Part shown: positions 4,721-64,000 of the stretch, piece by piece
How positions within the stretch are numbered: position 1 is the first letter of the stretch
Layout of the letters: each line of letters starts with the position of its first letter
Assembly (NCBI RefSeq): GCF_030143255.1
Contig: NZ_JARJNR010000002.1
Coordinates: forward strand, 186,001 to 250,000
Direction of reading: 5' to 3'
DNA length: 64,000 nt
Source of the DNA: Frigidibacter sp. SD6-1
Lineage (GTDB): Bacteria > Pseudomonadota > Alphaproteobacteria > Rhodobacterales > Rhodobacteraceae
Notes under the pieces: model-generated
Databases searched by the model: none
Told to the model about the DNA's origin: nothing
The model's input: only the letters and a program-made list of their open reading frames with translations
Program-made: the position numbers and the translations under genes

Positions 4721-5071
4721 GTTTGCTGCCCTGACTTGCCTCGTTCTGTTCTTGGAAATCAGTCTGACGATTTTTCGAGGGGCTTTCCATTGCTTTCGCG
4801 CGAAGGGGCAGAGAATGTGGCCGCAGCGGCTCTTTTGGCAACATATTCCAGCGCCACACAGCGGCCGACAAGCACAATAATCATTTATATTCAATGATTT
4901 AGATTGAGAATGCCAACATGGAAAATCACGAAAAATGTACGAACAGCGCCCCAATCGCGCCACGATTCGCGGGCTAGATATGTCCATGCCGCGACGGGGA
5001 CGGGATCAGAGATCTCCCGGGAGACACGGGTGCGGATGGTGCAGAAGCTGAACATCTACGGAGACAGACAA
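4721..5071. promoter_or_regulatory. Divergent control region between transglycosylase and pilin 1, with an AT-rich dyad
   Basis: This 351-bp stretch has no credible gene. It is markedly more AT-rich than its surroundings around 4870-4945. At 4879-4899 lies a perfect inverted repeat, AATCATT and AATGATT separated by seven bases, a plausible operator or promoter element for either divergent unit. I could not assign a convincing -35/-10 pair. The pilin 1 start is preceded by GGAGACAGACAA, giving a GGAG ribosome-binding site. Confidence 0.45.
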
Positions 5072-5257
5072 ATGAAATTCTTCAAATCGGTCAAAGAGTT
5101 CCACAATGAAGAAGAAGGCGCGGTCACGGTTGACTGGGTCGTGCTGACCGCCGCCGTCGTCGGCCTCGGCGTTCTCGCCCTCGGCGCGATCAAGTCGGGC
5201 ACCGGCGCGCTCTCGACCAAGATCAACAACTACCTCTCGACCGTCAGCGTCGGCTAA
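5072..5257 (+). CDS. flp1: Flp/Fap-type pilin, variant 1
   Basis: A 61-residue prepilin, the likely fibre subunit of the Tad pilus. A short charged leader ends EEEG16, followed by AVTVDWVVLTAAVVG and a single hydrophobic helix. Canonical Flp pilins carry Glu and Tyr at mature positions 5 and 6; here these are Asp21 and Trp22, a shift shared by all three pilins of this locus. Cleavage after Gly16 by the prepilin peptidase at 15851 is expected. The ATG at 5072 is chosen because it follows a GGAG site and gives a leader of normal length. Confidence 0.85.
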   Translation: MKFFKSVKEFHNEEEGAVTVDWVVLTAAVVGLGVLALGAIKSGTGALSTKINNYLSTVSVG

Positions 5258-5281
5258 TCGCCGATCTCGCGCAAATCGGAT

Positions 5282-5314
5282 CGAGCCGCGCCCGAGGCGC
5301 GGCTCGTTTCGTTT
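5282..5314 (+). terminator. Intrinsic terminator after pilin 1
   Basis: A perfect 11-bp stem (CGAGCCGCGCC with its complement, loop CGA) at 5282-5306 is followed by TTTCGTTT. It would end the pilin 1 transcript as a monocistronic message. The same hairpin recurs after pilin 2. Confidence 0.85.
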
Positions 5315-5478
5315 GTGCCTTCTGGCAACGCCTGCACTATGCGCAAATGAGCATCGGTCTGTTTCGCAGTTGGAGCTTTCGTTTCACCAAATTGAACCAT
5401 CCTCGCCCAATTATCGTCACCGACACAGCGGACCGTCTCCATGCTTGTAGACCAGTGTGATCCAGTTTGGAGTAGAAA

Positions 5479-5667
5479 ATGAGAATCTTGGCGATCGATA
5501 TCAAGAAATTCAACCGCGATGAAAGCGGTGCAGTAACCGTCGACTGGGTCGTTCTGACCGCCGCCGTCGTCGGCCTCGGCGTGCTCGCCCTCGGCGCGGT
5601 CAAATCGGGCACCGGCGCGCTCTCGACCAAGATCAACAAATACCTCTCGAGCGTGTCCGTCGGCTGA
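5479..5667 (+). CDS. flp2: Flp/Fap-type pilin, variant 2
   Basis: A 62-residue prepilin nearly identical to variant 1 from the processing site onward (GAVTVDWVVLTAAVVGLGVL, then the same SGTGALSTKIN segment). The leader differs (MRILAIDIKKFNRDESG17). It and its terminator form a second copy of the unit carrying pilin 1, offset by about 410 bp, so the pair arose by tandem duplication with divergence of the leader and promoter. The second copy may allow separate timing or dose of pilin expression. Confidence 0.85.
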   Translation: MRILAIDIKKFNRDESGAVTVDWVVLTAAVVGLGVLALGAVKSGTGALSTKINKYLSSVSVG

Positions 5668-5691
5668 TCGCCGCGCTCACGCAAATCGGAT

Positions 5692-5724
5692 CGAGCCGCG
5701 CCCGAGGCGCGGCTCGTTTCGTTT
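5692..5724 (+). terminator. Intrinsic terminator after pilin 2
   Basis: An identical 11-bp stem and CGA loop to that after pilin 1 lies at 5692-5716, followed by TTTCGTTT. The shared sequence extends upstream through GCAAATCGGAT, showing that the terminator was duplicated along with the gene. Confidence 0.85.
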
Positions 5725-5899
5725 CTGGCTTCGCGCATCCGGTATTTGTGCGTCTTTGGGTATCGCACTGTTTCCATACCGTGCGCCCGGTCCGCCAAAT
5801 CGGCCTATGCCTGCCCAATTCCTGACATTAACCGCAGGCAACCTCTTCACAAGATTGGGAACCACGCGGGCGCTGCGCGCCGCGACTTGGGAGATTGAA

Positions 5900-6088
5900 A
5901 TGAAGCGCTTCGTACTCGATTTCAAGAAGTTCAACGACGATGAGACCGGTGCAGTCACCGTCGACTGGGTCGTGCTGACCGCAGGCGTCGTTTCACTGGT
6001 GGCAATCGCCATGGGGGCGATCAAGGGCAACATGTCCTCGATCGGCGACAAGGTGGAAGCCTATCTCAGCAGCGTGTCGGTTCCCTGA
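5900..6088 (+). CDS. flp3: Flp/Fap-type pilin, variant 3 (diverged)
   Basis: A 62-residue prepilin with the same leader pattern (FKKFNDDETG17) and the same AVTVDWVVLTA start of the mature chain, then a different helix and tail (GVVSLVAIAMGAIKGNMSS). It is the most diverged of the three and lacks the duplicated terminator, so it predates the pilin 1/2 duplication. It could be a minor subunit or an alternative major pilin. A TTAACC half-site like that bound by CtrA lies upstream near 5829, but one half-site is weak evidence. Confidence 0.8.
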   Translation: MKRFVLDFKKFNDDETGAVTVDWVVLTAGVVSLVAIAMGAIKGNMSSIGDKVEAYLSSVSVP

Positions 6089-6102
6089 TCGCCGCGCTTT
6101 GC

Positions 6103-24848: not shown

Positions 24849-25255
24849 CACCCGACATCCCGGCATACAACCAGCGTCAAGCACCCGAGCCCCGGGCGAT
24901 CTGCGACCGCCTGGCGGCCGAGATTACCGCCGGACTGCCCGAGGCCCAGGCGAAGGTCTGGCATGGCGGGCCGGTCTGGTTCCTGAACGGCAATCCGGTG
25001 GCGGGCTATTGGGTGCGCAAGGCCCATGTCCAGCTTCTGTTCTGGAGCGGCCAGTCCTTCGGCGAAACCTCGCTGCGCCCCGAAGGCAAATTCAAGGCGG
25101 CTGAAGCGCGACTGACCGATGTCGCGCAGATCGATCGCGCGGCCCTCGTCTGCTGGTTTGAGAAGGCGCGCGCCATCCAGTGGGATTACAAGAACCTCAT
25201 CAAACGGCGCGGCGTCCTGGAATGGCTGGCTCGACCGGATGAGCCGATTTCTTGA
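24845..25255 (+). CDS. DUF1801-type protein
   Basis: A 136-residue cytoplasmic protein with the pattern KVWHGGPVWFLNGNPVAGYW and LLFWSGQSFGE seen in the DUF1801/YdhG-like family, whose function is unknown. It is the last gene of the arsR operon. Its final codons and stop (PIS then TGA) lie inside the first palindrome of the repeat at 25244, so its C-terminus is set by that repeat. Confidence 0.75.
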   Translation: MTPDIPAYNQRQAPEPRAICDRLAAEITAGLPEAQAKVWHGGPVWFLNGNPVAGYWVRKAHVQLLFWSGQSFGETSLRPEGKFKAAEARLTDVAQIDRAALVCWFEKARAIQWDYKNLIKRRGVLEWLARPDEPIS

Positions 25256-25313
25256 AAAGAAATCGGACCGGAACCTTTGAAAGGTTCCGGCCGGATTTCG
25301 TATCGAAATCCGG
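25244..25313. repeat. Triple tandem palindrome between convergent DUF1801 gene and folD
   Basis: Three adjacent hairpins: 25244-25266 (arm CCGATTTCTT), 25268-25290 (arm CCGGAACCTTT) and 25291-25313 (arm CCGGATTTCG, loop TAT). Similar arrays occur at 52488 and 60644. Placed between convergent genes it would end both transcripts; no T-run follows. Confidence 0.85.
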
Positions 25314-25328
25314 CACGCGCAGCAAGGA

Positions 25329-38099: not shown

Positions 38100-38479
38100 A
38101 ACTCTGCTCGCGTTTGGGCCGCCTGTCCGAACGGCTCTGATTTGACGCGATTCTAGCCTGCTTTCCTGGCGAAGGAAACGGGGCGCGCCGGAAATCCGCC
38201 GATCCGGGCGCCACGGCTGAAATCTCCTGAAACATCGCGCCCGCCGCAGGCCTGTCGTGATCCAGCGGAGCCGCGCCCGAAAGGGCGCGGCACGCCTTTC
38301 CTCTCGCGGCCCGCGCACAAGGCGCGGGCCGCTCGGCGCGCCTCCGGCGGGAGTATTTCAGGACAGAAAGGACAGACCACTCCTCTCACTTTCTGTCTCC
38401 AAGTACTCCGGGAGGGGCGCGGGGAGGGCAGCGCCCTCCCCGCACGGATCGGCCGGGCGAAGCCCGGACGAAATTTCCT
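38100..38479. repeat. Hairpin-rich gap between ybgC and tolQ, with two inverted GGAGTATTT motifs
   Basis: No gene is seen. The gap holds three strong hairpins: 38270-38291 (9 bp, GAAA tetraloop), 38306-38332 (11 bp, loop ACAAG) and 38421-38441 (9 bp, loop AGC). Between the last two are copies of the GGAGTATTT...CAGAAAG motif, one on the plus strand (38344-38370) and one on the minus strand (38389-38415), facing each other. The leftmost 150 bp next to tolQ have no hairpin and could hold its promoter. Confidence 0.75.
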
Positions 38480-52487: not shown

Positions 52488-52534
52488 CCGAAATCTTTGA
52501 AAGATTTCGGACCGGATTTCGTTTCGAAATCCGG
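52488..52534. repeat. Double tandem palindrome between convergent pcs and DMT transporter genes
   Basis: Palindrome 1 is 52488-52510 (arm CCGAAATCTTT), palindrome 2 is 52512-52534 (arm CCGGATTTCG, loop TTT). Both arms match members of the arrays at 25244 and 60644. The array begins seven bases after the pcs stop and ends eight bases before the opposing gene's stop, as expected for a two-way terminator. Confidence 0.85.
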
Positions 52535-52542
52535 CGCCTCCC

Positions 52543-53948: not shown

Positions 53949-56930
53949 CTAGCCAAGCGCATCGTTGCAACGCTGACACGTACCCTCATGGGCATGGCTG
54001 CCCACGTCCGGCAGGATGCGCCAGCAGCGCTGGCATTTCTCGCCGTCGGCCAGTTCGAAGACCACGCCCACCCCCGGCACTTCGGACAGGCGGAAGGCTT
54101 CTTCCGGCGCGGGGTCGGCGGTCAGCTGGATCGCCGAGGTGATGCACAATTCGGCGAAATCGACCGATTTCAGCGCTTTCAGCGTCGCCTGATCCTCGAC
54201 ATGCACCACGGGTGCCGCCTCCAGCGAGGCGCCGATGACCTTGGCCGTCCGCTGCACCTCCAGGGCCGCCGTCACCACCCGGCGCACCTTGCGGATCGCC
54301 TCCCATTTCTGCGCCAAGGGCTCGTCCAGCCAGTCGGCGGGCGTCTCGGGCATGTCGGTCAGATGGACCGATGAGCCCTCGCCCGGGAAACGGCAGAGCC
54401 AGACCTCCTCCATCGTGAAGACGAGGATCGGCGCCAGCCAGGTGGTCAGGCGATGGAACAGGATGTCCAGCACCGTCCGCGCCGCCCGGCGGCGCGCACT
54501 GTCCGGCGCGTCGCAGTACAGCGCATCCTTGCGGATGTCGAAATAGATGGCGCTGAGGTCCACCGTGCAGAAGGTGAAGAGCGTCTGGAACACGCCCTGG
54601 AAATCGTATTTCGCATAGCCGGTGCGGACCACGTGATCCAGTTCCGCCAACCGGTGCAACACCCAAGCTTCCAGCTCCGGCATCTCCTCCGGCGCGACCC
54701 GCTCTGCCTCGGTGAAGCCCGCGAGGTTGCCAAGGATGAAGCGCAGTGTATTGCGCAGACGGCGGTAGCTGTCGGCGGTGCCTTTCAGGATCTCCTTCCC
54801 GATCCTCAGGTCGACCGTATAGTCCGACTGCGCCACCCAGAGCCGCAGGATATCGGCGCCATATTCGTCGATCACCTGCTGGGGTGCGACGGTATTGCCC
54901 AGCGATTTCGACATCTTCATGCCCTTCTCGTCGAGCGTGAAGCCGTGGGTCAGCACACCCCGATAGGGCGCGCGCCCCTTGGTGCCGCAGGCCTGCAGCA
55001 TCGAGGAATGGAACCATCCCCGGTGCTGGTCGGTGCCTTCGAGGTAGAGGTCGGCGAGGCCATCCACCGTGCCATCGGGCCGGTCGCGCAGCACGAACGC
55101 ATGGGTCGAGCCACTGTCGAACCAGACGTCGAGGATATCGAAGACCTGTTCATAATCCGACGGATCGACCAGACCGGACAGGACCTTCTCCTTGAATCCT
55201 TGCACATACCAGACATCAGCCCCCTCGGCCTCGAACGCCGCCTTGATGCGGGCATTGACCTCGGCATTGCGCAGAAGGAAGTCGGGATCGGTGGGCTTTG
55301 CCCCCTTTTTCGTGAAACAGGTCAAGGGCACGCCCCAGGCGCGCTGGCGCGAGAGCACCCAGTCGGGCCGCGCCTCGATCATCGAATAGAGGCGGTTGCG
55401 GCCCGTCACCGGCGTCCATTCGACAAGCTGGTTGATCGAATTCAGCGCGCGCTTGCGGATCGTGTCGCCATAGGTCGACAGGCCATCGTCAAGGCTTTTG
55501 TCGATCGCCACGAACCATTGCGGCGTGTTGCGGTAGATGAGCGGCGCCTTCGACCGCCAGGAATGCGGGTAGGAATGCTTGATCTTGCCCTTGGCGAACA
55601 AGGCGCCCGCATAGGCGAGTTGCTTGATCACCGAGACGTTCGCCGGGCCTTCCTTGCCGTCGGCTCCGATGATCGCCTGCCCGCCAAAGAGCGGCAGGTC
55701 GGCGCGGTAGCTGCCGTCCGGTTCGACATTGTAGGTCATCGGCAGGCCGTGCTTCAGGCCCAGCTGATAGTCGTCGTCGCCGTGAGAAGGGGCGGTGTGG
55801 ACAAATCCCGTGCCTGCGTCGTCGGTGACGTGATCGCCGGGGAGGAGGGGGACGTCGTAGTCCCATTCGCCGTGCGCGCCCTCGACACCCCGGAAGGGGT
55901 GCGACAGGGTCAGCGTCGCCAGTTCCTCGCCCGGAACGGCACGCAGCTTGCGGAAACTCTCGACCCGCGCGGCGGCAAAGATCGCCTCGGCCAGCTTGTC
56001 GGCCACGAGGATCGTTTCACCCACCTTCGCGCTCGCGTTTTCGCCGACCGCGGACACCTCATAAAGACCGTAGGCGATCGCGGGGTTGAAGGCGACTGCA
56101 CGGTTTTGCGGGATGGTCCAGGGCGTCGTGGTCCAGATCACCACCGACGCGCCCTCAAGCGCGTCCCCGTCCCGGGCTTGACCCGGGACCTCTGTGGCGG
56201 AGGCCCCGGCTCGGGGGCCGGGGCGGGGTGCGCTGACGTTGAACCGCACCCAGATCGTGTGGCTCGTATGGTCGTGATATTCGACCTCGGCCTCGGCCAA
56301 AGCGGTCTTCTCGACCGGCGACCACATCACCGGTTTTGATCCCTGATAGAGCGAGCCGTTCATCAGGAAGGCCATGAATTCCTCGGCGATCACCGCCTCG
56401 GCATGGTAGTTCATCGTCAGGTAGGGGTCGGCCCAGTTGCCGGTGACGCCGAGGCGCTTGAACTCCTCGCGCTGCACGTCGATCCAGCCTTCGGCGAACT
56501 TGCGGCATTCCTGACGGAAGGCGACCGTATCGACATCGTCCTTGTTCAGGCCCTTGGCGCGGTACTGTTCCTCGATCTTCCATTCGATCGGCAGGCCGTG
56601 GCAGTCCCAGCCCGGCACGTAGCGGGCATCGCGGCCCATCATCTGCTGGCTGCGCACTACCATATCCTTCAGGACCTTGTTCAGCGCGTGCCCGATATGC
56701 AGGTGACCGTTCGCATAAGGAGGGCCGTCATGCAGGGTGAAGGGCGCCCGCTTCTTGCCATCCGGGCCGGTCTTTTCCCGCAGCCGGTCATAGACGCCGA
56801 TCCGTTCCCAGCGCGCCAGCCAGTCGGGCTCACGCTGCGGCAGGCCCGCGCGCATCGGAAAGTCGGTTTCCGGCAGAAAGACGGTGTCGCGATAGTCGGG
56901 TGCAGTCTTTTCGGGCGTGTCGGCGCACAT
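53949..56930 (-). CDS. ileS: Isoleucyl-tRNA synthetase, with an in-frame repeat insertion
   Basis: A 993-residue class I synthetase that charges tRNA(Ile). The HIGH motif is in GHLHIGHALNK, KMSKS is MKMSKSLGN, the editing domain contains VVIWTTTPWTIPQNR and the C-terminal zinc site is CQRCW with CQRC. Between WVRFNV and LEGASVVIWTTT (residues about 234-257) the chain contains a Pro/Gly/Ala/Arg-rich stretch (APRPGPRAGAS) coded by a palindromic repeat of the type also found at 63680, described below. The frame is kept, so the enzyme is presumably active. Confidence 0.94.
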   Translation of the reverse strand: MCADTPEKTAPDYRDTVFLPETDFPMRAGLPQREPDWLARWERIGVYDRLREKTGPDGKKRAPFTLHDGPPYANGHLHIGHALNKVLKDMVVRSQQMMGRDARYVPGWDCHGLPIEWKIEEQYRAKGLNKDDVDTVAFRQECRKFAEGWIDVQREEFKRLGVTGNWADPYLTMNYHAEAVIAEEFMAFLMNGSLYQGSKPVMWSPVEKTALAEAEVEYHDHTSHTIWVRFNVSAPRPGPRAGASATEVPGQARDGDALEGASVVIWTTTPWTIPQNRAVAFNPAIAYGLYEVSAVGENASAKVGETILVADKLAEAIFAAARVESFRKLRAVPGEELATLTLSHPFRGVEGAHGEWDYDVPLLPGDHVTDDAGTGFVHTAPSHGDDDYQLGLKHGLPMTYNVEPDGSYRADLPLFGGQAIIGADGKEGPANVSVIKQLAYAGALFAKGKIKHSYPHSWRSKAPLIYRNTPQWFVAIDKSLDDGLSTYGDTIRKRALNSINQLVEWTPVTGRNRLYSMIEARPDWVLSRQRAWGVPLTCFTKKGAKPTDPDFLLRNAEVNARIKAAFEAEGADVWYVQGFKEKVLSGLVDPSDYEQVFDILDVWFDSGSTHAFVLRDRPDGTVDGLADLYLEGTDQHRGWFHSSMLQACGTKGRAPYRGVLTHGFTLDEKGMKMSKSLGNTVAPQQVIDEYGADILRLWVAQSDYTVDLRIGKEILKGTADSYRRLRNTLRFILGNLAGFTEAERVAPEEMPELEAWVLHRLAELDHVVRTGYAKYDFQGVFQTLFTFCTVDLSAIYFDIRKDALYCDAPDSARRRAARTVLDILFHRLTTWLAPILVFTMEEVWLCRFPGEGSSVHLTDMPETPADWLDEPLAQKWEAIRKVRRVVTAALEVQRTAKVIGASLEAAPVVHVEDQATLKALKSVDFAELCITSAIQLTADPAPEEAFRLSEVPGVGVVFELADGEKCQRCWRILPDVGSHAHEGTCQRCNDALG
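56162..56230. repeat. Palindromic repeat inside ileS
   Basis: Two hairpins lie in the coding sequence: 56169-56189 (GTCCCGGG and CCCGGGAC, loop CTTGA) and about 56202-56219 (GGCCCC and GGGGCC). The right part, 56200-56228, is the same sequence as one arm of the repeat at 63736, with one extra G. Codons read across it in frame. Confidence 0.8.
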
Positions 56931-57240
56931 GTCGGGGCGTTCCTTCGGAAGTCGGTCAGGAAGGGGCGGGGGCGCCCCTTAAGCAAACGGGCAATCCCGG
57001 CGGCTGAGGGATCAGCGCGCCGGGCCGCTAATTCGACGTATCTGCGCGGCCTTCATCTGCATGGCCGCCTTATAGGCGGTCGCCTTCCGCTGGTCCAGTG
57101 CGGGCGTGCGGCGGCACCGGAATGCACTCGCCAGCCGGTTTCAGCGGCAGGGCGAACCCATCCTGATCCAGGCCGGGCGGCGAAGAGCCGCATTGCACTT
57201 TCCGCGCCGGCGGAAAGAATGCGGCGCGAAAGGAGCTCCC
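56931..57240. promoter_or_regulatory. Divergent region between ileS and the truncated globin, with a large leader hairpin
   Basis: No gene seen in 310 bp. At 57187-57225 GCCGCATT and CTTTCCGC pair with GCGGAAAG and AATGCGGC (16 pairs, a three-base bulge, loop GCCG). The hairpin ends just before the AAAGGAG ribosome-binding site (57229-57235) of the globin gene. I found no FNR/Dnr-type TTGAT-N4-ATCAA box. Confidence 0.55.
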
Positions 57241-57648
57241 ATGCCGCCACCACCCCCCCGCTTCCCGGTGACCCCCGAGGAGATCGACCGCGTCGTCGCC
57301 GATTTCTACACCGCGATCCGGGTCCATCCCGGCCTCGGCCCGGTCTTCGCGGCCCATGTCACCGACTGGCCCGCCCACGAGGAAAAGATCGCCCGCTTCT
57401 GGCGCAACGCGATCCTCTATGAGCGCTCCTACGACGGCAACCCGATGGAGGCGCACCGCGCCGCGGGCAATGTCCGGCCCGGCATGTTCCCGGTCTGGCT
57501 CGGGCTCTTCGACAGCGTGCTGGCGCGCAACCTCGCGCCCGAGACCGCCGCCCGATGGTCAGCGCTCGCGCACCGCATCGGCGCGGGCCTGCGTTATGGC
57601 GTGACCGAGGGCGCGGCCTTCGCGGATGGTGTACCGAAACTCAGGTAG
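57241..57648 (+). CDS. Group III truncated haemoglobin
   Basis: A 135-residue globin. The proximal His72 is in GNPMEAHRAAG, aligning with the site in Campylobacter Ctb, and the distal-side Trp is in FPVWLGLF; HEEKIARFWRNAILYERSYDG is the diagnostic block. Group III globins bind oxygen or nitric oxide in the cytoplasm; the physiological role is not settled. It follows AAAGGAG and a large hairpin that might control translation. Confidence 0.9.
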   Translation: MPPPPPRFPVTPEEIDRVVADFYTAIRVHPGLGPVFAAHVTDWPAHEEKIARFWRNAILYERSYDGNPMEAHRAAGNVRPGMFPVWLGLFDSVLARNLAPETAARWSALAHRIGAGLRYGVTEGAAFADGVPKLR

Positions 57649-57679
57649 AGTTCGTCCCGCCTACGGCGGGCCGACCCGC

Positions 57680-57735
57680 CGGGAGGGCTCTGCCCTCCCG
57701 GACCCTCCCGGAGTATTTTCCGACAGAAAGTGAAG
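57680..57735 (+). repeat. Hairpin plus GGAGTATTT motif after the globin gene
   Basis: CGGGAGGGC and GCCCTCCCG form a 9-bp stem (57680-57700, loop TCT). It is followed at 57703-57735 by CCTCCCGGAGTATTTTCC and ACAGAAAGTGAAG, the same layout as at 42421 (also a TCT loop). It is sited between the convergent globin and DUF2339 genes. Confidence 0.75.
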
Positions 57736-57736
57736 A

Positions 57737-60526
57737 TCAGCCGGAGCTTGTCTCGGTTGAAGCGTCGCCCTGCCGCTCCGCCGCCCAGCGGTTCAGCCAG
57801 GCGAGGCCCGCGAGCGCGAGGCCGAGGGCGAGGAAGGAGAAGACGCGGGTAAGCCCGGACAGGCCCGAGGCGTCGATCAGGAAGACCTTGGCGATGGTAA
57901 GCGCGATCACCGCCATGGCGATCCGCCTGAGGCTGCCCGAGCGGCGGGCGATCGCCTGATAAAGGAGCGCGGCACCGAGCGCCATCAGCGCGACGGTGTA
58001 GCTGTAAAGCTCGGCCTGGGTGACGCCATGGACCGACAGGTCCGTGCCGCGCCAGAGCCGCCGGATCTCGAGCCCTGCGTAGAGCGCCGCAAGCGCGATA
58101 CCAAGGCCCTGCATCGGCAGAGACAGCCAGCGCGGCAGATGACCGAGGCGCCGCGCGGCGATGGTCAGCATGAGACCGGGGATCAGGTAGGCGACCATCA
58201 GGCTGTCGAAGATGACCGGGCCGCGCACCCAGCCGTCGCTGCCAAGAAGCCCGGCAAGCGGGTTCGCAGGCAGCGCCGACAGGCCAAGCCCGCCGAGCGC
58301 CAGGAGGCCCGCGACCGACGCGATCGCCCAGCGCAGCCAGCGCAGCGCGCCGCCGAGCTGCAGCCGGTAGAGCTGCACCAGCGCCAGCACCAGCCATGGC
58401 ATCGCATAGAGGGAAAGCGCCCAGTGGCTGAAAACCGCGCCCCGCCCGTCGAACTGCCGCAGCACCATGACGTTGAAGAACAAAGCCAGCGCCGCCGCCC
58501 CGCCGGATTCGAGGAAGACCCGCGCATTGCGCCGCTCGCCCGGCAGGATCAGCCGCAATGTACCCAGCATCGCCGCCGATGCGCCGCCATAGGCGAGGAT
58601 CGCGTCGATCAGGCCTGCGGCGTCCACCGCCCAGTCGAGCCCCGGATCGATCACCAGCCGGTAGGACAGCGCCATCACCGCCGCCTGGATGAACCAGCCC
58701 ATCTCCGGCAGGCGGAAGCGACGGTCGAGCAGTGCCGCGACCGGGATGAGCGCGGCCAGCGCCAGGGTCAGCGCCGCCTTGGTCAGGACGAGGCCGAAGG
58801 CCAGCGCGATGAGCGCGAGCGTCGAGAGGGTCGCGTAGGCGGCCCGGCGCCGGTCCTCGCCGTCTGCCGCCGCGAAGCGACTGGCGAGGAAGGCCATGAG
58901 CGCGGCAAGCGCTATGACATGCAGGGCCCAAGGGTATGGCCCGAGGATCGAAGACGGCGCCCAGAAGAACTCCAGCACCGCCGCCGCAATCGGCGCGACC
59001 AGCGCCGCCGCCGCGCCCCAGGGCGCGCGCCAGTGATCGCCCGCTTCGCCCCGACCGCTGCGCCAGGCGGCGATCAGGCTCATCACCACGCCAAGCCCGA
59101 GCAGCAGCGCCGCGGTCTGCGGCGCCGCGACCTCGGGCAGGCGCAGATCGGCGGCCTTGTCCGCATAGGACCGCGCCATCGGCCCGTTGGCAGCGCCCTC
59201 GAGTGCCAGACGGGCAAGGAAGCCAACCGCCGGTATCAGGGCGAGGTCGGACAGGGCACGGGCGCGGGCGGACCAGAGAGTCAGGAGGCACGCAAGACCC
59301 GTGAGGCAGAGCAGGGCCAGTGGGCTGCCTGCCTCGCCACCTCCCCATACCATAACCAATCCGGTGACCGAAAGCGCCACCGCTCCCGCTGCCAGACGGG
59401 TCGGGAAGATAGGCCAGCCACCGGCGCCGCGCCGCAGAACCGCCTCCAACACCGTCGGACCGTCGTGATCCGGCGCAGACCGGAGGCAGGGCACAAGGAC
59501 CGCAAGTATAGCGAGTGCCGTAAGCGCCAGTGCCGCGTAGCCCTCCTCTCCGCCGCCGTCGAAGACAAGCAAGAGCCCGCCATAACCGACCGCCAGCGCC
59601 AGAACCGAGACCCAGGCCCAGCGCCGGGCGGCATCGATGCCGAGGCCGAGAGCGGCAATCAGGCAGAAATAGGCATAAAGCGGATCGATCGTTTCGCTCG
59701 ACCCGCCGACAGCGAAGGGCGCGATGCCCGCGCCGATCAGGCCGACGGCGGCAAGGAAGGGCCCGTAATACCAGCCGATGACGAGCGCCAGCACCGAAAC
59801 CGCCGCCAGCCCGCCGAAAGCGGTACCGGTGCCGATCAGGTCGTAAAGCTGGCGCGCCGCCAGCACGCCCGCGAACATCGAGACAATCCCCGCGCCCGCG
59901 AAGGTCGAGGGCAGATAGGCAGTGGCGGATTTCACCCCGTCGCCCGACCGGCGGCGGATGAATTCACCCGCCGCAATCAGCGCCAGCCCGAAGAGAAGCG
60001 CCATGGCGACCCGGGCGGGCGGCGGCAGAAGGCCGTTCTCCACACCATATTGCACGAAGAAGACACCGGCGAAGGCCAGCGACAGGGCAGAGATCGCATA
60101 GACCCAGTTGGCCTTCAGCCAGTCGCCGAGCGCCGAAGCGCGTTCACGCGAGACGACGACCGGCCGGTCGGCGTTTGGCACGGATGTCACGTCAGGGGGC
60201 GCGGCGGCTGCAGCGGCCGCAGGTGCGCCCGACCAGGGATCGGCGGGCTCCGTGCCCGGGTCGGCCGCGTCCGGCTGATCGGCAACCGGTGTGGCATGCG
60301 GTGCGGCAGGCGGTCCGGCCACAGCAGGGTCATCCGCCCGGTCCGACCCGACCCGAGGCATCACCGCCGCCGGTATGGACCGACCGGCAAGGTCGACATG
60401 GCGCCGCTCAAGATCGGTCAGGCGCCGAGAGAGCGCGGCGACCTTGAAGACCAGGACGACCACCGTCACCGGGATCGCAAGCACGGCAAGCGCCGCCAGT
60501 ACCGCCAGAAATTGCATTCGCACCAT
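57737..60526 (-). CDS. DUF2339 giant membrane protein
   Basis: A 929-residue protein with an N-terminal helix and short coiled-coil (about 1-45), an Ala/Pro-rich low-complexity spacer (about 55-110) and then roughly 24 predicted membrane helices to the end. This is the DUF2339 layout; function is unknown, with a wall or envelope role suspected in other bacteria. ATG 60517 is a possible alternative start. It lies downstream of ycjF on the same strand across a tandem palindrome. Confidence 0.85.
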   Translation of the reverse strand: MVRMQFLAVLAALAVLAIPVTVVVLVFKVAALSRRLTDLERRHVDLAGRSIPAAVMPRVGSDRADDPAVAGPPAAPHATPVADQPDAADPGTEPADPWSGAPAAAAAAAPPDVTSVPNADRPVVVSRERASALGDWLKANWVYAISALSLAFAGVFFVQYGVENGLLPPPARVAMALLFGLALIAAGEFIRRRSGDGVKSATAYLPSTFAGAGIVSMFAGVLAARQLYDLIGTGTAFGGLAAVSVLALVIGWYYGPFLAAVGLIGAGIAPFAVGGSSETIDPLYAYFCLIAALGLGIDAARRWAWVSVLALAVGYGGLLLVFDGGGEEGYAALALTALAILAVLVPCLRSAPDHDGPTVLEAVLRRGAGGWPIFPTRLAAGAVALSVTGLVMVWGGGEAGSPLALLCLTGLACLLTLWSARARALSDLALIPAVGFLARLALEGAANGPMARSYADKAADLRLPEVAAPQTAALLLGLGVVMSLIAAWRSGRGEAGDHWRAPWGAAAALVAPIAAAVLEFFWAPSSILGPYPWALHVIALAALMAFLASRFAAADGEDRRRAAYATLSTLALIALAFGLVLTKAALTLALAALIPVAALLDRRFRLPEMGWFIQAAVMALSYRLVIDPGLDWAVDAAGLIDAILAYGGASAAMLGTLRLILPGERRNARVFLESGGAAALALFFNVMVLRQFDGRGAVFSHWALSLYAMPWLVLALVQLYRLQLGGALRWLRWAIASVAGLLALGGLGLSALPANPLAGLLGSDGWVRGPVIFDSLMVAYLIPGLMLTIAARRLGHLPRWLSLPMQGLGIALAALYAGLEIRRLWRGTDLSVHGVTQAELYSYTVALMALGAALLYQAIARRSGSLRRIAMAVIALTIAKVFLIDASGLSGLTRVFSFLALGLALAGLAWLNRWAAERQGDASTETSSG

Positions 60527-60643
60527 CCCCGCATCCGGCCGCGTCCTCGGGCCCGGTTTTCGGCGGAGATTAGGCGGGCGGCGCCCCGCTCACAAGTCAG
60601 CTATTCCCGCCCCGGTCCGGGTATCGGCCTTGCGGCCCGGCGG

Positions 60644-60713
60644 CCGAAATCTTTCAAAGATTTCGGACCGGAGCCTTTCAAAGGCTCCGACCGGATTTCG
60701 TGTCGAAATCCGG
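60644..60713. repeat. Triple tandem palindrome at the end of ycjF
   Basis: Palindromes at 60644-60666 (arm CCGAAATCTTT), 60669-60689 (arm CGGAGCCTTT) and 60691-60713 (arm CCGGATTTCG, loop TGT). The order and arm sequences repeat those at 25244 and 52488. The last ten codons of ycjF (DFDTKSGRSL) and its stop lie inside the second and third palindromes. Confidence 0.87.
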
Positions 60714-61712
60714 GGCCGCCGCCTCGCCGCGGCGCCCGAATAGTCCGGCGAGACCGCGCGTCAGAAGGTTCGTCACCTTCGGGCGCGGCAGGGCGGCGAA
60801 GGGAAGTGGCCGGCAGACCTCCATCGCGGCGACACCCACCCGCGCGGTCAGGGCGCCGTTGATCACCCCTTCGCCGAAGCGGCGCGAGAGTTTCGACAAA
60901 AGCCCGCCGCCCGCCACCGAATGGATCAGGTCATCACCCACCGCGACCGCGCCGGTCGCCACCAGATGCACCGCCACCCGCCGCATCAGCCGCCAGCTGC
61001 CGAAAGCGCCCGAGCGGCCGCCATAGATCGCCGCGATCCGCCGCACCATCCGCGTATTGGCGATCAGCGCCACCGCCACATCGGCCAGCGCCAAGGGCAC
61101 GATGGCCGTCGCCGCCGCCACCTGCCGCGCCGCCGCCTCGATCTCGCGCCGCGCCAGCTGGTCTAGGGGCCCGAGGTAATCTTCCTCGACCAGCGCCAGC
61201 ACCGCCCCGGCCTCGGCCAGGTCATGGCTCCGCTCGCCATGGCGCGCCGCGACCCAGGCAAGCTCCGCCCGTCCCCGGTAGAGCGCGACGACCTCTGCCT
61301 GCACGGCCCGTGCGGCGCCAAGATCGCCCGGCCCGACCGCCGCCCGGGCACGCTCCCTCAGCCCGTCGAGCCGCCTCAGCCGCATCAGCGCCAGAAGCTC
61401 GCGCGCCACGAAGAGCAGGCTGAGCAGCGCGAGAAGTCCGGCCAGCACCACCGCCACCGATCCCAGAAGCGGATAGCTGACAAACAAGCTCTCCACATAG
61501 GACCAGAGCGCCAGTGTCAGAAGGAACAGCAGAAGCGACCCGGCCGTCCCGACCAACCAGGCACCGAGCCGCCATCCTCGCCGCGCCGGGGCGGGGATGG
61601 CAACGTCAGCAGGTTCTGCCAAAGGCGCCAGATCGGCGACGACCGGCATCTCGGCCGGATCAAGCTCCACGAGCAGCGGCCCCCGCCTCCCGGTTCCGGT
61701 CTCGCCCTTCAC
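60678..61712 (-). CDS. ycjF: YcjF-like membrane protein (DUF697/TIGR01620)
   Basis: A 344-residue inner-membrane protein with two helices near 48-95 and a DUF697 domain (ATAIVPLALADVAVALIAN, RRFGEGVINGALTARVG). It starts with GTG; its start overlaps the stop of ycjX (GTGA). YcjX and YcjF occur together and in enterobacteria are linked to the phage-shock regulon. The C-terminal ten residues derive from the repeat at 60644. Confidence 0.85.
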   Translation of the reverse strand: MKGETGTGRRGPLLVELDPAEMPVVADLAPLAEPADVAIPAPARRGWRLGAWLVGTAGSLLLFLLTLALWSYVESLFVSYPLLGSVAVVLAGLLALLSLLFVARELLALMRLRRLDGLRERARAAVGPGDLGAARAVQAEVVALYRGRAELAWVAARHGERSHDLAEAGAVLALVEEDYLGPLDQLARREIEAAARQVAAATAIVPLALADVAVALIANTRMVRRIAAIYGGRSGAFGSWRLMRRVAVHLVATGAVAVGDDLIHSVAGGGLLSKLSRRFGEGVINGALTARVGVAAMEVCRPLPFAALPRPKVTNLLTRGLAGLFGRRGEAAAPDFDTKSGRSL

Positions 61713-63097
61713 AGCCTGTCTCCGATCAGGAAATCCACCGCCCGGTCGAGCCTGATGTGCGGCAGGCCCCGCCCCGCCCCGCCGCCCGGCGCGGGCAGGA
61801 AGCGCATCGCCTGATAATCGCCGTCAAGCCAGCCCGCCGCCGCCTCGCGCGCGGGCGTCAGTATCTCGGCCGGATTGTCCGGCAGGTCGCCCGCATGAAA
61901 GGCCGCAACCCGCCCGTCCTCCAGCCGCCCCTTCACGCAGGCCACCTCGCGCCCGCCCGACCGCACCATATCCTCCGCCGTTACCCTCAGCGCCGCTATC
62001 GCCATCGCCGCGGTACCCGCCCCCGCGAAATCCGCCCGCTCCTTCGCCGCCCGCATCAGGCCCGCCAAGATCGCCGCCAGCCGCGCATGCTGGCTTGAGT
62101 GCAGATGATCGGCCTTGGTCGCGGCAAACAATATCCGCTCCACCCGCCGCTGCCCCAGGAGGGCAGCAAGCCATCCCCGCCGCCCCGGCCGGAAGGCCGC
62201 CAGCACTGCGGCCATCGTGGTGCGCAGGTCTTCGACCGCGCGCGGACCCGCATCCAGCGCCGCCAGAAGATCGGCCAGCACCACCTGCCGGTCGATCCTC
62301 GCGAAATGGTCGCGGAAGAAGGGCGTCACCACCTTGGTCTTGTAGGCCTCGAACCGCCGCGCGAACTCACGCCCGACCGAGCCCCGCCCCGGCGCCAGAT
62401 CAAGCCGCAACGGCGCGAAGGTCAGCGCAGGCGACCCCGCCAGATCGCCGGGCAACAGGAACCGCCCGGGCGTGCAATCGGCATAGCCTGCCGCCCGCGC
62501 CGCCTTCAGATATTCCGTGAAGAGCCCCGCCAGCCGCGTGGCCTCCCCCTCGTCGAGCCGGGCCCCCGCATCCGCCGCCACCAGCGCCTCCAGACAGACG
62601 CGCGCCTCCGCCATCTCCTCGGCCCGCGCCGCAAGCTTTGCCAGCGCCCCGCGCGACCAGTCCTCATAGTTCTGGTCCATCAGCATCAGGTCCAGAAGCC
62701 ACTCGCCCGGATAATCGACGATGTCGAGATGCAGGATCCGCTCGCCCATGACTGCCCCCGCCAGCCCCCGCCCCTGCAGCCGGAACGAGAGCCTGAGTTC
62801 GCTCACCGCCCGCGTGCTTTCGGGCCAGTGCGGGGCCGTCCCGGTCAAGGCCGCCAGATGCGCCTCGTAATCGAAGCGCGGCACGGTATCGTCAGGCTGC
62901 GGCTGCAGATAGACCGCCCGTATGCGCCCCGCCGCCTCGGCCCGAAGGCCCCCCATCCGCGCCCGGTCCAGCAGGTTCGCGACAAGCGCGGTGATGAACA
63001 CCGTCTTGCCCGCGCGCGACAGGCCGGTGACGCCAAGGCGCAAGACCTCCTCCGCCCCCACAAGGCCCCGCACCGCCTGCCCGATCCCGCCGATCAT
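61709..63097 (-). CDS. ycjX: YcjX-like P-loop protein (DUF463)
   Basis: A 462-residue protein of the DUF463 family. The P-loop VTGLSRAGKTVFITALVANLL is near residues 22-42, HLDIVDYPGEWLLDL is a Walker B-like G3 region and FAATKADHL resembles a G4 motif. It is a GTPase-like partner of YcjF. The ATG at 63097 gives the usual start close before the P-loop; the frame is open further upstream without support. Confidence 0.87.
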   Translation of the reverse strand: MIGGIGQAVRGLVGAEEVLRLGVTGLSRAGKTVFITALVANLLDRARMGGLRAEAAGRIRAVYLQPQPDDTVPRFDYEAHLAALTGTAPHWPESTRAVSELRLSFRLQGRGLAGAVMGERILHLDIVDYPGEWLLDLMLMDQNYEDWSRGALAKLAARAEEMAEARVCLEALVAADAGARLDEGEATRLAGLFTEYLKAARAAGYADCTPGRFLLPGDLAGSPALTFAPLRLDLAPGRGSVGREFARRFEAYKTKVVTPFFRDHFARIDRQVVLADLLAALDAGPRAVEDLRTTMAAVLAAFRPGRRGWLAALLGQRRVERILFAATKADHLHSSQHARLAAILAGLMRAAKERADFAGAGTAAMAIAALRVTAEDMVRSGGREVACVKGRLEDGRVAAFHAGDLPDNPAEILTPAREAAAGWLDGDYQAMRFLPAPGGGAGRGLPHIRLDRAVDFLIGDRL

Positions 63098-63219
63098 GCC
63101 ATCCTTCCGTTTCCTCCAAGATAGGCGCGCGGGGGCCACGGCGAAAGCCCCCGGCTTCCCCCGATCACCCCCTTGCCAAAACCCCCCGCCCGCTCCACCG
63201 TGAGGCGAACGGGGCTGAC

Positions 63220-63651
63220 ATGACACCACGCACCATCGCCGAGTATGAGGCGCTGACCGGCGCCGACGCGCTGACCGAGGCGGAACAGCGCCTGATCGCC
63301 GCCTGCCGGGCGGGTGCGCCATGCGTGCTGGGGGAAGAACGCCCGACCGAAGCCAGGACGCCCCTGCCCGAGGCTTTCGCGGGCTGCGATCCGAACCCGG
63401 CCGCGACATGGGCGAACGACCCCGCCCTCGGGATGGACTGGGACTCGTTCAACTCCGTCGGCTATGGGCTCGACCTCGTGGTGCCGATCCTCAACCTTGG
63501 CCAGACCGAGGCCTGGGCGCCGTCGAAGGATCGGGGCTGGTGGGGCTGGGGGCTCTGGTGGGGCCGGTGGGTGTTTCAGGCCGCTGGCTGGATCGTCACC
63601 GCCCTCGGCGCCGCCGCGATCACCGGCATCATCCAGCGCGGGCGGGAGTGA
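63220..63651 (+). CDS. Small protein that looks like an internally deleted larger membrane protein
   Basis: A 143-residue frame. Its N-terminus (LTEAEQRLIAACRAGAPCVLG) resembles the opening of large proteins with pentapeptide-like repeat regions, and its C-terminus (DLVVPILNLGQTEAW, one hydrophobic helix at about 113-138) resembles the closing membrane part of the same kind of protein. The middle several hundred residues that I would expect are absent, with the join near residues 40-60. It may be a remnant or a natural short form. It is flanked by a large inverted repeat. Confidence 0.5.
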   Translation: MTPRTIAEYEALTGADALTEAEQRLIAACRAGAPCVLGEERPTEARTPLPEAFAGCDPNPAATWANDPALGMDWDSFNSVGYGLDLVVPILNLGQTEAWAPSKDRGWWGWGLWWGRWVFQAAGWIVTALGAAAITGIIQRGRE

Positions 63652-63679
63652 GCGCGCCGGAGCGCCGTCACCGGACCCG

Positions 63680-63762
63680 CCCGCCCCGGCCCCGAGCCGG
63701 GGCCTCCGCGTCAAACCGCAATGCGCATCCAGAGAGAGGCCCCGGCTCGGGGCCGGGGCGGG
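63680..63762. repeat. 27-bp perfect inverted repeat of the CCCCGGCTCGGGG type
   Basis: Arms 63680-63706 and 63736-63762 are perfect complements (27 bp) around a 29-base loop. Each arm itself contains a smaller palindrome (CCCCGAGCCGGGG). One arm is repeated inside ileS. It lies between the small gene at 63220 and the convergent last gene and would be a very strong transcript end. Confidence 0.87.
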
Positions 63763-63848
63763 GTCGGCCTGCATTACCCGACGCTCTTCCTTACCATACG
63801 TCCAGACATACCTCCTGCCATACGCAGGCTGCACCCGTTCCGCCGCCC

Positions 63849-63998
63849 TCAGGCGCTGCGGTGGAGGCTAGCGAAGAGGCGGGGCTCCAAGCTTTCGGAG
63901 GCGAAGGTCGGCCCCTCGGTCAGCACCGACACGGCATCGTGGCTGTGCAGGCTTTCCTGATGGACGGCGACGATGCGGAAGTCTCCGACACGCGGTTC
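63849..63998 (-). CDS. Unidentified protein, C-terminal fragment
   Basis: A frame entering from the right edge codes for 49 residues and stops with TGA at 63849-63851. It contains RIVAVHQESLHSHDAVSVLT and ends LFASLHRSA. Codon use matches the neighbours, so it is likely real, but I cannot name it from this short part. Confidence 0.5.
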   Translation of the reverse strand, partial: EPRVGDFRIVAVHQESLHSHDAVSVLTEGPTFASESLEPRLFASLHRSA

Positions 63999-64000
63999 GG

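Follow-up and report, generated by a model that had tools for sequence, protein, structure and literature searches.

The 64,000-nucleotide stretch of DNA analysed here (the 'window'; G000:C22:186001-250000, from a genome of 3.9 Mb in 38 contigs) carries a complete ileS gene on its minus strand at 53949..56930, encoding an isoleucine--tRNA ligase of 993 amino acids, as identified from the ORF list and a profile match (791.6 bits against TIGR00392, cut-off 621.4). A whole-genome search found this one IleRS gene, along with three other partial matches, 28-32% identical, which on their sequence are taken for other class I synthetases. Embedded in the gene, in frame and on the same strand, is a 64-nt head-to-head REP-like dimer (56165..56228) that corresponds to IleS residues 235-256 (PRPGPRAGASATEVPGQARDGD). 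Its parts run as follows: an outer CCCC (56165-56168); unit A, GTCCCGGGCTTGACCCGGGAC (56169..56189), a 21-nt hairpin with an 8-bp stem and 5-nt loop, exact copies of which occur elsewhere in the genome; the CTC tail of unit A (56190-56192); a 7-nt spacer (56193..56199); the GAG tail (56200-56202) of unit B, GCCCCGGCTCGGGGGCCGGGGC (56203..56224), a 22-nt hairpin with an 8-bp stem and 6-nt loop, which recurs in a copy within glyS (L161); and an outer GGGG (56225-56228). Both tails point inward, toward the spacer. The original prediction, made from the letters of the window, had placed a double hairpin in the ileS coding sequence at 56162-56230 (69 nt, 23 codons), and was right to within a few bases.

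The predicted RNA fold of the ileS stretch (z = -3.4; as good in 1/200 shuffles) has units A and B pairing with each other, not two separate hairpins. A weaker result came from the best single hairpin of the window loop taken alone, which was matched by 0.083 of codon shuffles (a test of 109 loops, 92 of them with no hairpin scoring 7 or more, the fractions being uncorrected for the number of tests); the proof of a repeat therefore lies in its copies and not in the hairpin. Rfam gave no match within window positions 55000-64000. Judging from the open frame, the insert should be translated, as some 22 flexible residues.

Copies are plentiful. A BLAST search of the ileS stretch against its own genome returned 48 matches at E <= 10, of which 24, counting the stretch itself, had E <= 0.0167; unit A matched 20 times when as many as three mismatches were allowed, against 4 for a reversed control, and the unit pattern GAGGNCCCGGNNNNNNNCCGGGNC matched 44 times (24 forward, 20 reverse) against 0. 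A second dimer of the family sits within the window at 63680..63762, after the ORF at 63220-63651, with two 27-nt arms that are 100% complementary and 29 nt between them; window 56197-56222 is 92% complementary to 63684-63709. It had been claimed that the right half of the ileS element is the same sequence as an intergenic repeat at 63736: the match stands (97% identity between window 63736-63764 and query positions 61-90), but the intergenic status is likely and not proven, because two ORFs, 63094-63834 (-) and 63314-63871 (+), cross the dimer.

We fetched copies from the own genome at 20 places with BLAST matches and at 7 with weaker pattern matches. Thirteen of the 20 BLAST-match places overlap no ORF that passes a crude coding filter, and seven do, two of which (L177 and L178) look like plain coding sequence. 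The copy at L160 seems to lie before the true start of its ORF; that at L176 has its start on the stop codon of the ORF, while that at L168 overlies a stop, in genes that we take to be hflX and rsmA. Further in-frame copies, which the original prediction had thought worth seeking, are present in two genes. In glyS (L161) a full dimer lies in frame (locus 2020-2088), with query residues 417-444 standing opposite residues 419-422 of the GlyRS beta subunit 7yse_C, about 24 extra; in carB (L170; carbamoyl-phosphate synthase large subunit) a single unit, half an element, is in frame (LVPGLTRDL, locus 2005-2029), with about 12 extra residues near it relative to 1bxr_A, in a region that aligns poorly. 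Both copies use a reading frame other than that of ileS, and both inserts were judged against solved structures only, the ileS insert against close relatives. The claim of a palindromic repeat tolerated in frame within a core enzyme is supported by the dispersed family, the one IleRS gene found in the genome, these other in-frame copies and the absence of the insert from the sister species. As to what might move the repeat, no RAYT-type transposase was found in the own genome (Y1_Tnp, PF01797; 0 matches, with the control matching in 5/14 genomes).

The host loop varies from 11 to 49 residues (median 23) among 80 named relatives (the best 80 of 593), the nearest named row to the window in the IleS trees being Defluviimonas sediminis. 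Alignment with close relatives, as the original prediction had proposed, shows the insert to be absent: the IleS of the sister species G002 is 95% identical by BLAST (96% over 735 columns without the loop), and its loop lacks the element, reading PVAAASEFKDLDGCIRTDLLQASVV instead. Beside the loop, nucleotide identity between G002 and the window is 0.80-0.97 per 60 nt across 480 nt upstream and 900 nt downstream, in an ungapped comparison that loses register farther upstream than 480 nt. The corresponding loop of 1ffy (presumably the S. aureus enzyme) is shorter than in the window IleS. An AlphaFold2 model built from 38 sequences (mean pLDDT 69.6, pTM 0.54) gives pLDDT <50 at residues 236-253, between strands at 216-232 and 262-267, and mostly >85 in the editing part after the insert, which we take to be CP1; other stretches, such as 191-220, are also <50. 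The insert region fits a flexible loop, in a model that is only fair overall.

Ten carriers of the family in this loop were found among 165 IleS proteins. The named set holds two in 80 (L058 and L080, both Roseovarius). A draw from the family by peptide query, which matched 269 of 394 genomes, gave six among the best 30 loci: the window, L110, L111, L112, L113 and L121. Among the best 30 loci of a Roseovarius draw, whose query contained the insert and matched 72 of 79, four are carriers: L226, L228 and two from the genomes that L080 and L058 represent. Nine carriers have dimers, with the first hairpin decayed in L112, and L121 has half an element; the genus samples around G378 and G096 comprised one genome each. 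REP-rich genomes, with at least nine unit matches, number 40 of 388, by a threshold set after the carriers were known (the lowest carrier, G273, has nine); unit matches number 9-61 per genome in the six carriers from the family draw. Ten genomes of the REP-rich set were already represented by loops and 30 more genomes were searched, of which 29 matched and G102 did not: six of the 39 readable loops are carriers, and all 29 newly searched are negative. The loops examined cover a minority of the REP-poor genomes, and L264 (G323) was covered by whole-ORF scan only.

That scan, of both strands of the ileS ORFs (80 named, 4 genus, 29 family, 30 Roseovarius and 29 REP-rich, some genomes twice, the window excluded), found family units in this loop alone and in one frame only; many of the family, Roseovarius and REP-rich ORFs end at the 3-kb locus edge, so that the rest of ileS was scanned partially in these. 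Three weak palindromes elsewhere in ileS (L021, the same as L093; L022; L079) are unlike the family.

In a tree of 165 IleS rows (163 different), made with the loop cut out by a quick method with SH-aLRT only, the carrier label requires 10 changes for 10 carriers, at least 9 of which starred branches make unavoidable, where shuffled labels need 9.8; the carriers are as scattered as if shuffled, L111 and L121 sharing a common unresolved fork. Mean identity between the nine dimer carriers is 0.80 in the element, 0.54 at third codon positions (taken up to 300 nt on each side), 0.45 in the left loop flank and 0.57 in the right, and the element exceeds third positions in 36/36 carrier pairs; for the window and L110 the values are 0.95 in the element, 0.40 in the left flank and 0.58 in the right. 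Over all codon positions of flanking ileS the mean is 0.72, and several pairs equal or exceed the element (for example L113-L058, 0.75 in the element against 0.77). On these alignments, the element is more alike than freely changing sites of the host gene and its likeness falls at its ends, which argues against both vertical descent and a transfer in which the flanks moved with the loop.

The stems were compared on a structure that was itself derived from the sequences tested: both sides had changed in 5/16 pairs (0/500 shuffles), the count of further pair types was not unusual (141/500 shuffles), and the cells of the two hairpins are 95.8% and 100% paired. As far as the aligned copies go, paired changes preserve the DNA palindromes while the residues differ between carriers; this is not the pattern of shared residues with divergent codons in all relatives that the original prediction had named as the mark of an ordinary protein segment.

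The copies are also uniform in build. Orientation and frame are the same in all ten carriers, and each of the nine dimers consists of a 22-nt unit (decayed in L112), a spacer of 7 or 10 and then a 21-nt unit. The 56 genomic dimers sampled divide into 17 of the 21/22 and 39 of the 21/21 kind, and by our own arithmetic nine heterodimers in succession at 17/56 would be expected about 2 times in 100,000, orientation left aside. Independent insertion alone does not explain the shared orientation, frame and unit order; a filter is needed, be it target preference, selection on the peptide or an especially mobile dimer type. The peptide queries of the family and Roseovarius draws favour the same frame, while the 29 REP-rich and 80 named loops were examined regardless of frame.

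We also considered a host-specific origin of each copy and rejected it on sequence, since the IleS copy shows no greater likeness to copies from its own genome than to others, a result that counts against simple local copying. The best-scoring match of the IleS copy was another IleS copy in 6/10 carriers, a copy in another genome in 3/10 and one in its own genome in 1/10, with own-genome copies sampled for 8/10 carriers and fetched by likeness to the window element, and with scores that include some loop flank. The exception, suggestive only, is G096, where TTGC/CTGC loop units make up 3/6 (the IleS copy has CTGC) against 1/89 in the other seven genomes.

Synthesising these results, we consider it likely that a mobile REP-like dimer has inserted in frame into a permissive IleRS loop separately in the carriers; the results are best accounted for by a single tolerant loop that has received insertions repeatedly. 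The dimer, of a type that REP-rich genomes contain, would have entered each carrier independently, in a probably disordered loop immediately ahead of the strand connecting to the editing domain; copies landing out of frame or elsewhere in ileS would be purged by selection, such that only this loop retains them, and the uniform frame and unit order would reflect the further filter, whether target-site preference, selection on the peptide or one very mobile dimer. The closest competitor supposes a single insertion that homologous recombination at the ileS loop later carried from species to species, with the constant frame and unit order as marks of its single origin. The identical orientation and frame in 10/10 carriers, the 22-nt then 21-nt order in 9/9 dimers and the best matches among IleS copies in 6/10 are what such a history would leave, but we regard it as unlikely: the loop differs between carriers on both sides of a more similar element, nearby protein motifs follow clade (HTSH versus KESF), and the unit stems differ by paired changes, with several of the variants also present as genomic copies.

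An ancient insertion in a common ancestor, since erased from most lineages by loss or overwriting, would share the prediction of one site and frame, and the decayed hairpin of L112 could be a remnant of it; nevertheless, hairpins so fully paired beside third positions at 0.54, and 155 of 165 rows that lack the element under a label as scattered as shuffles, make this very improbable. That same absence from 155 rows, and from all 29 further REP-rich genomes matched (of 30 searched), also sits badly with a local job for the element, such as a peptide aiding IleRS or an RNA hairpin that slows the ribosome ahead of the editing domain; a uniform frame and unit order would suit such a role, which we hold to be quite improbable. 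Least credible of all is an ordinary low-complexity protein loop that resembles a repeat through the chance of high GC. Relatives do show variable loops, many of them rich in GC, and the best single hairpin of the window loop taken alone is matched by 0.083 of codon shuffles; against this, exact unit matches occur elsewhere in the genome, the unit pattern matches 44 times (control 0), the sister species lacks the insert and the stems carry paired changes.

REPINs and GTAG REPs are inverted REP doublets, dispersed and moved by RAYT (PMC3733652). The ileS family resembles them as dispersed, inverted doublets, but its units in the window have no GTAG at their ends and the own genome has no Y1 transposase match. 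CGTC REPs, found mainly in Alphaproteobacteria, form predominantly head-to-head dimers, have no associated transposase and include intragenic copies (Di Nocera 2013, PMC3733652), in genes that include tRNA synthetases in three species, with a REP at about the same site in recB of two Xanthomonas species; the main text of that paper does not name Rhodobacter, Ruegeria or Dinoroseobacter. The ileS family likewise has an 8-bp stem and 5-nt loop (in the 21-nt unit), a 3-nt tail and head-to-head dimers, of which we counted 56 in the sampled loci, in a count confined to such dimers. The CGTC-type range of an 8-9 bp stem and a 4-5 nt loop is thus matched by the 21-nt units (8 bp/5 nt) and not by the 22-nt units, with their 6-nt loop. 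CGTC REPs mostly have a CCA tail and have a stem starting AT, the ileS family a CTC tail and a stem starting G[CT]. An unpaired CGTC tag (or TGTC, CCTC) at the unit end was found in 0/112 G-stem 21-nt units from eight genomes, a count limited to units with one of six preselected tail triplets and leaving out 22-nt units; among these 112 preselected tails, CTC accounts for 104 and CCA for one. The family works like a CGTC REP, yet we do not file it as one because the tag is absent, though the build is common.

The parallel with Rickettsia proved closer than the original prediction had claimed, as RPE-7 itself is listed in the isoleucyl-tRNA synthetase of R. japonica (144 bp), R. conorii, R. africae and R. 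felis (PMC3767692). RPE-4, RPE-6 and RPE-7 are, like the ileS element, palindromic and in frame within genes, IleRS itself being a host; in-frame insertion into conserved genes, an RPE trait, is seen here in ileS and, against solved structures only, in glyS and carB. All Rickettsia orthologs examined have the insertion at the same site, from which the authors infer one old origin while calling hotspots 'still not negligible', and they place the inserts in solvent-exposed areas (PMC3767692). By contrast, the ileS element is 64 nt long and its carriers are scattered, with close relatives empty; we liken the two by description, not by sequence.

Intragenic palindromic repeats as such are already known, and the novelty here is that, in a different group, a repeat recurs uniformly at a single site; among the open-licence papers covered by our searches we saw none describing repeats of this sort in Rhodobacteraceae ileS. 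The Rickettsia question of one old insertion or a hotspot recurs in another family, and the scattered carriers beside empty close relatives make it directly testable, in an assayable essential enzyme. The case is one of a dispersed DNA repeat seemingly supplying coding sequence repeatedly. We also advance, tentatively and as the lesser chance, that the IleRS loop is a true landing site, which one dimer build enters repeatedly in the same orientation and frame; the element would then recognise a target in the loop, or donate a selected peptide. Were this so, REPs would time and again furnish an essential synthetase with a defined peptide module, and might do so in Rickettsia as well.

Other ileS loops hold sequences of different kinds. 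Non-repeat types, for example PMP.GEDDDYAGAD..L and DF..LDGC..TDLL (loops of L259, L268, L134 and of L013, L016, L090), look common to distant genera while some close relatives differ, a pattern that may come from rapid turnover or from the swapping of entire loops. The loop of L137 (G152) has two other perfect palindromes, GGGCGCGTTTTCGAAAACGCGCCC and AGCGATCCTTCGAAGGATCGCT, which we rejected as a repeat family, since only two other partial places match in G152.

The window itself contains further repeats. A second palindromic family, CCGAAATCTTTGAAAGATTTCGG with an adjacent GGATTTCGTTTCGAAATCC, occurs at 25244-25320, 52488-52541 and 60644-60720, the third copy overlapping the 3' end of the ORF at 60678-61712. 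At 5056-6098 a 138-nt repeat occurs in tandem as three copies that have diverged from one another, spaced by 410 and 421 nt, the repeat being longer between the first two copies. Finally, 38386-38416 and 57703-57733 form an inverted pair of 31 nt, 87% complementary (CCCTCCCGGAGTATTTTCCGACAGAAAGTGA).
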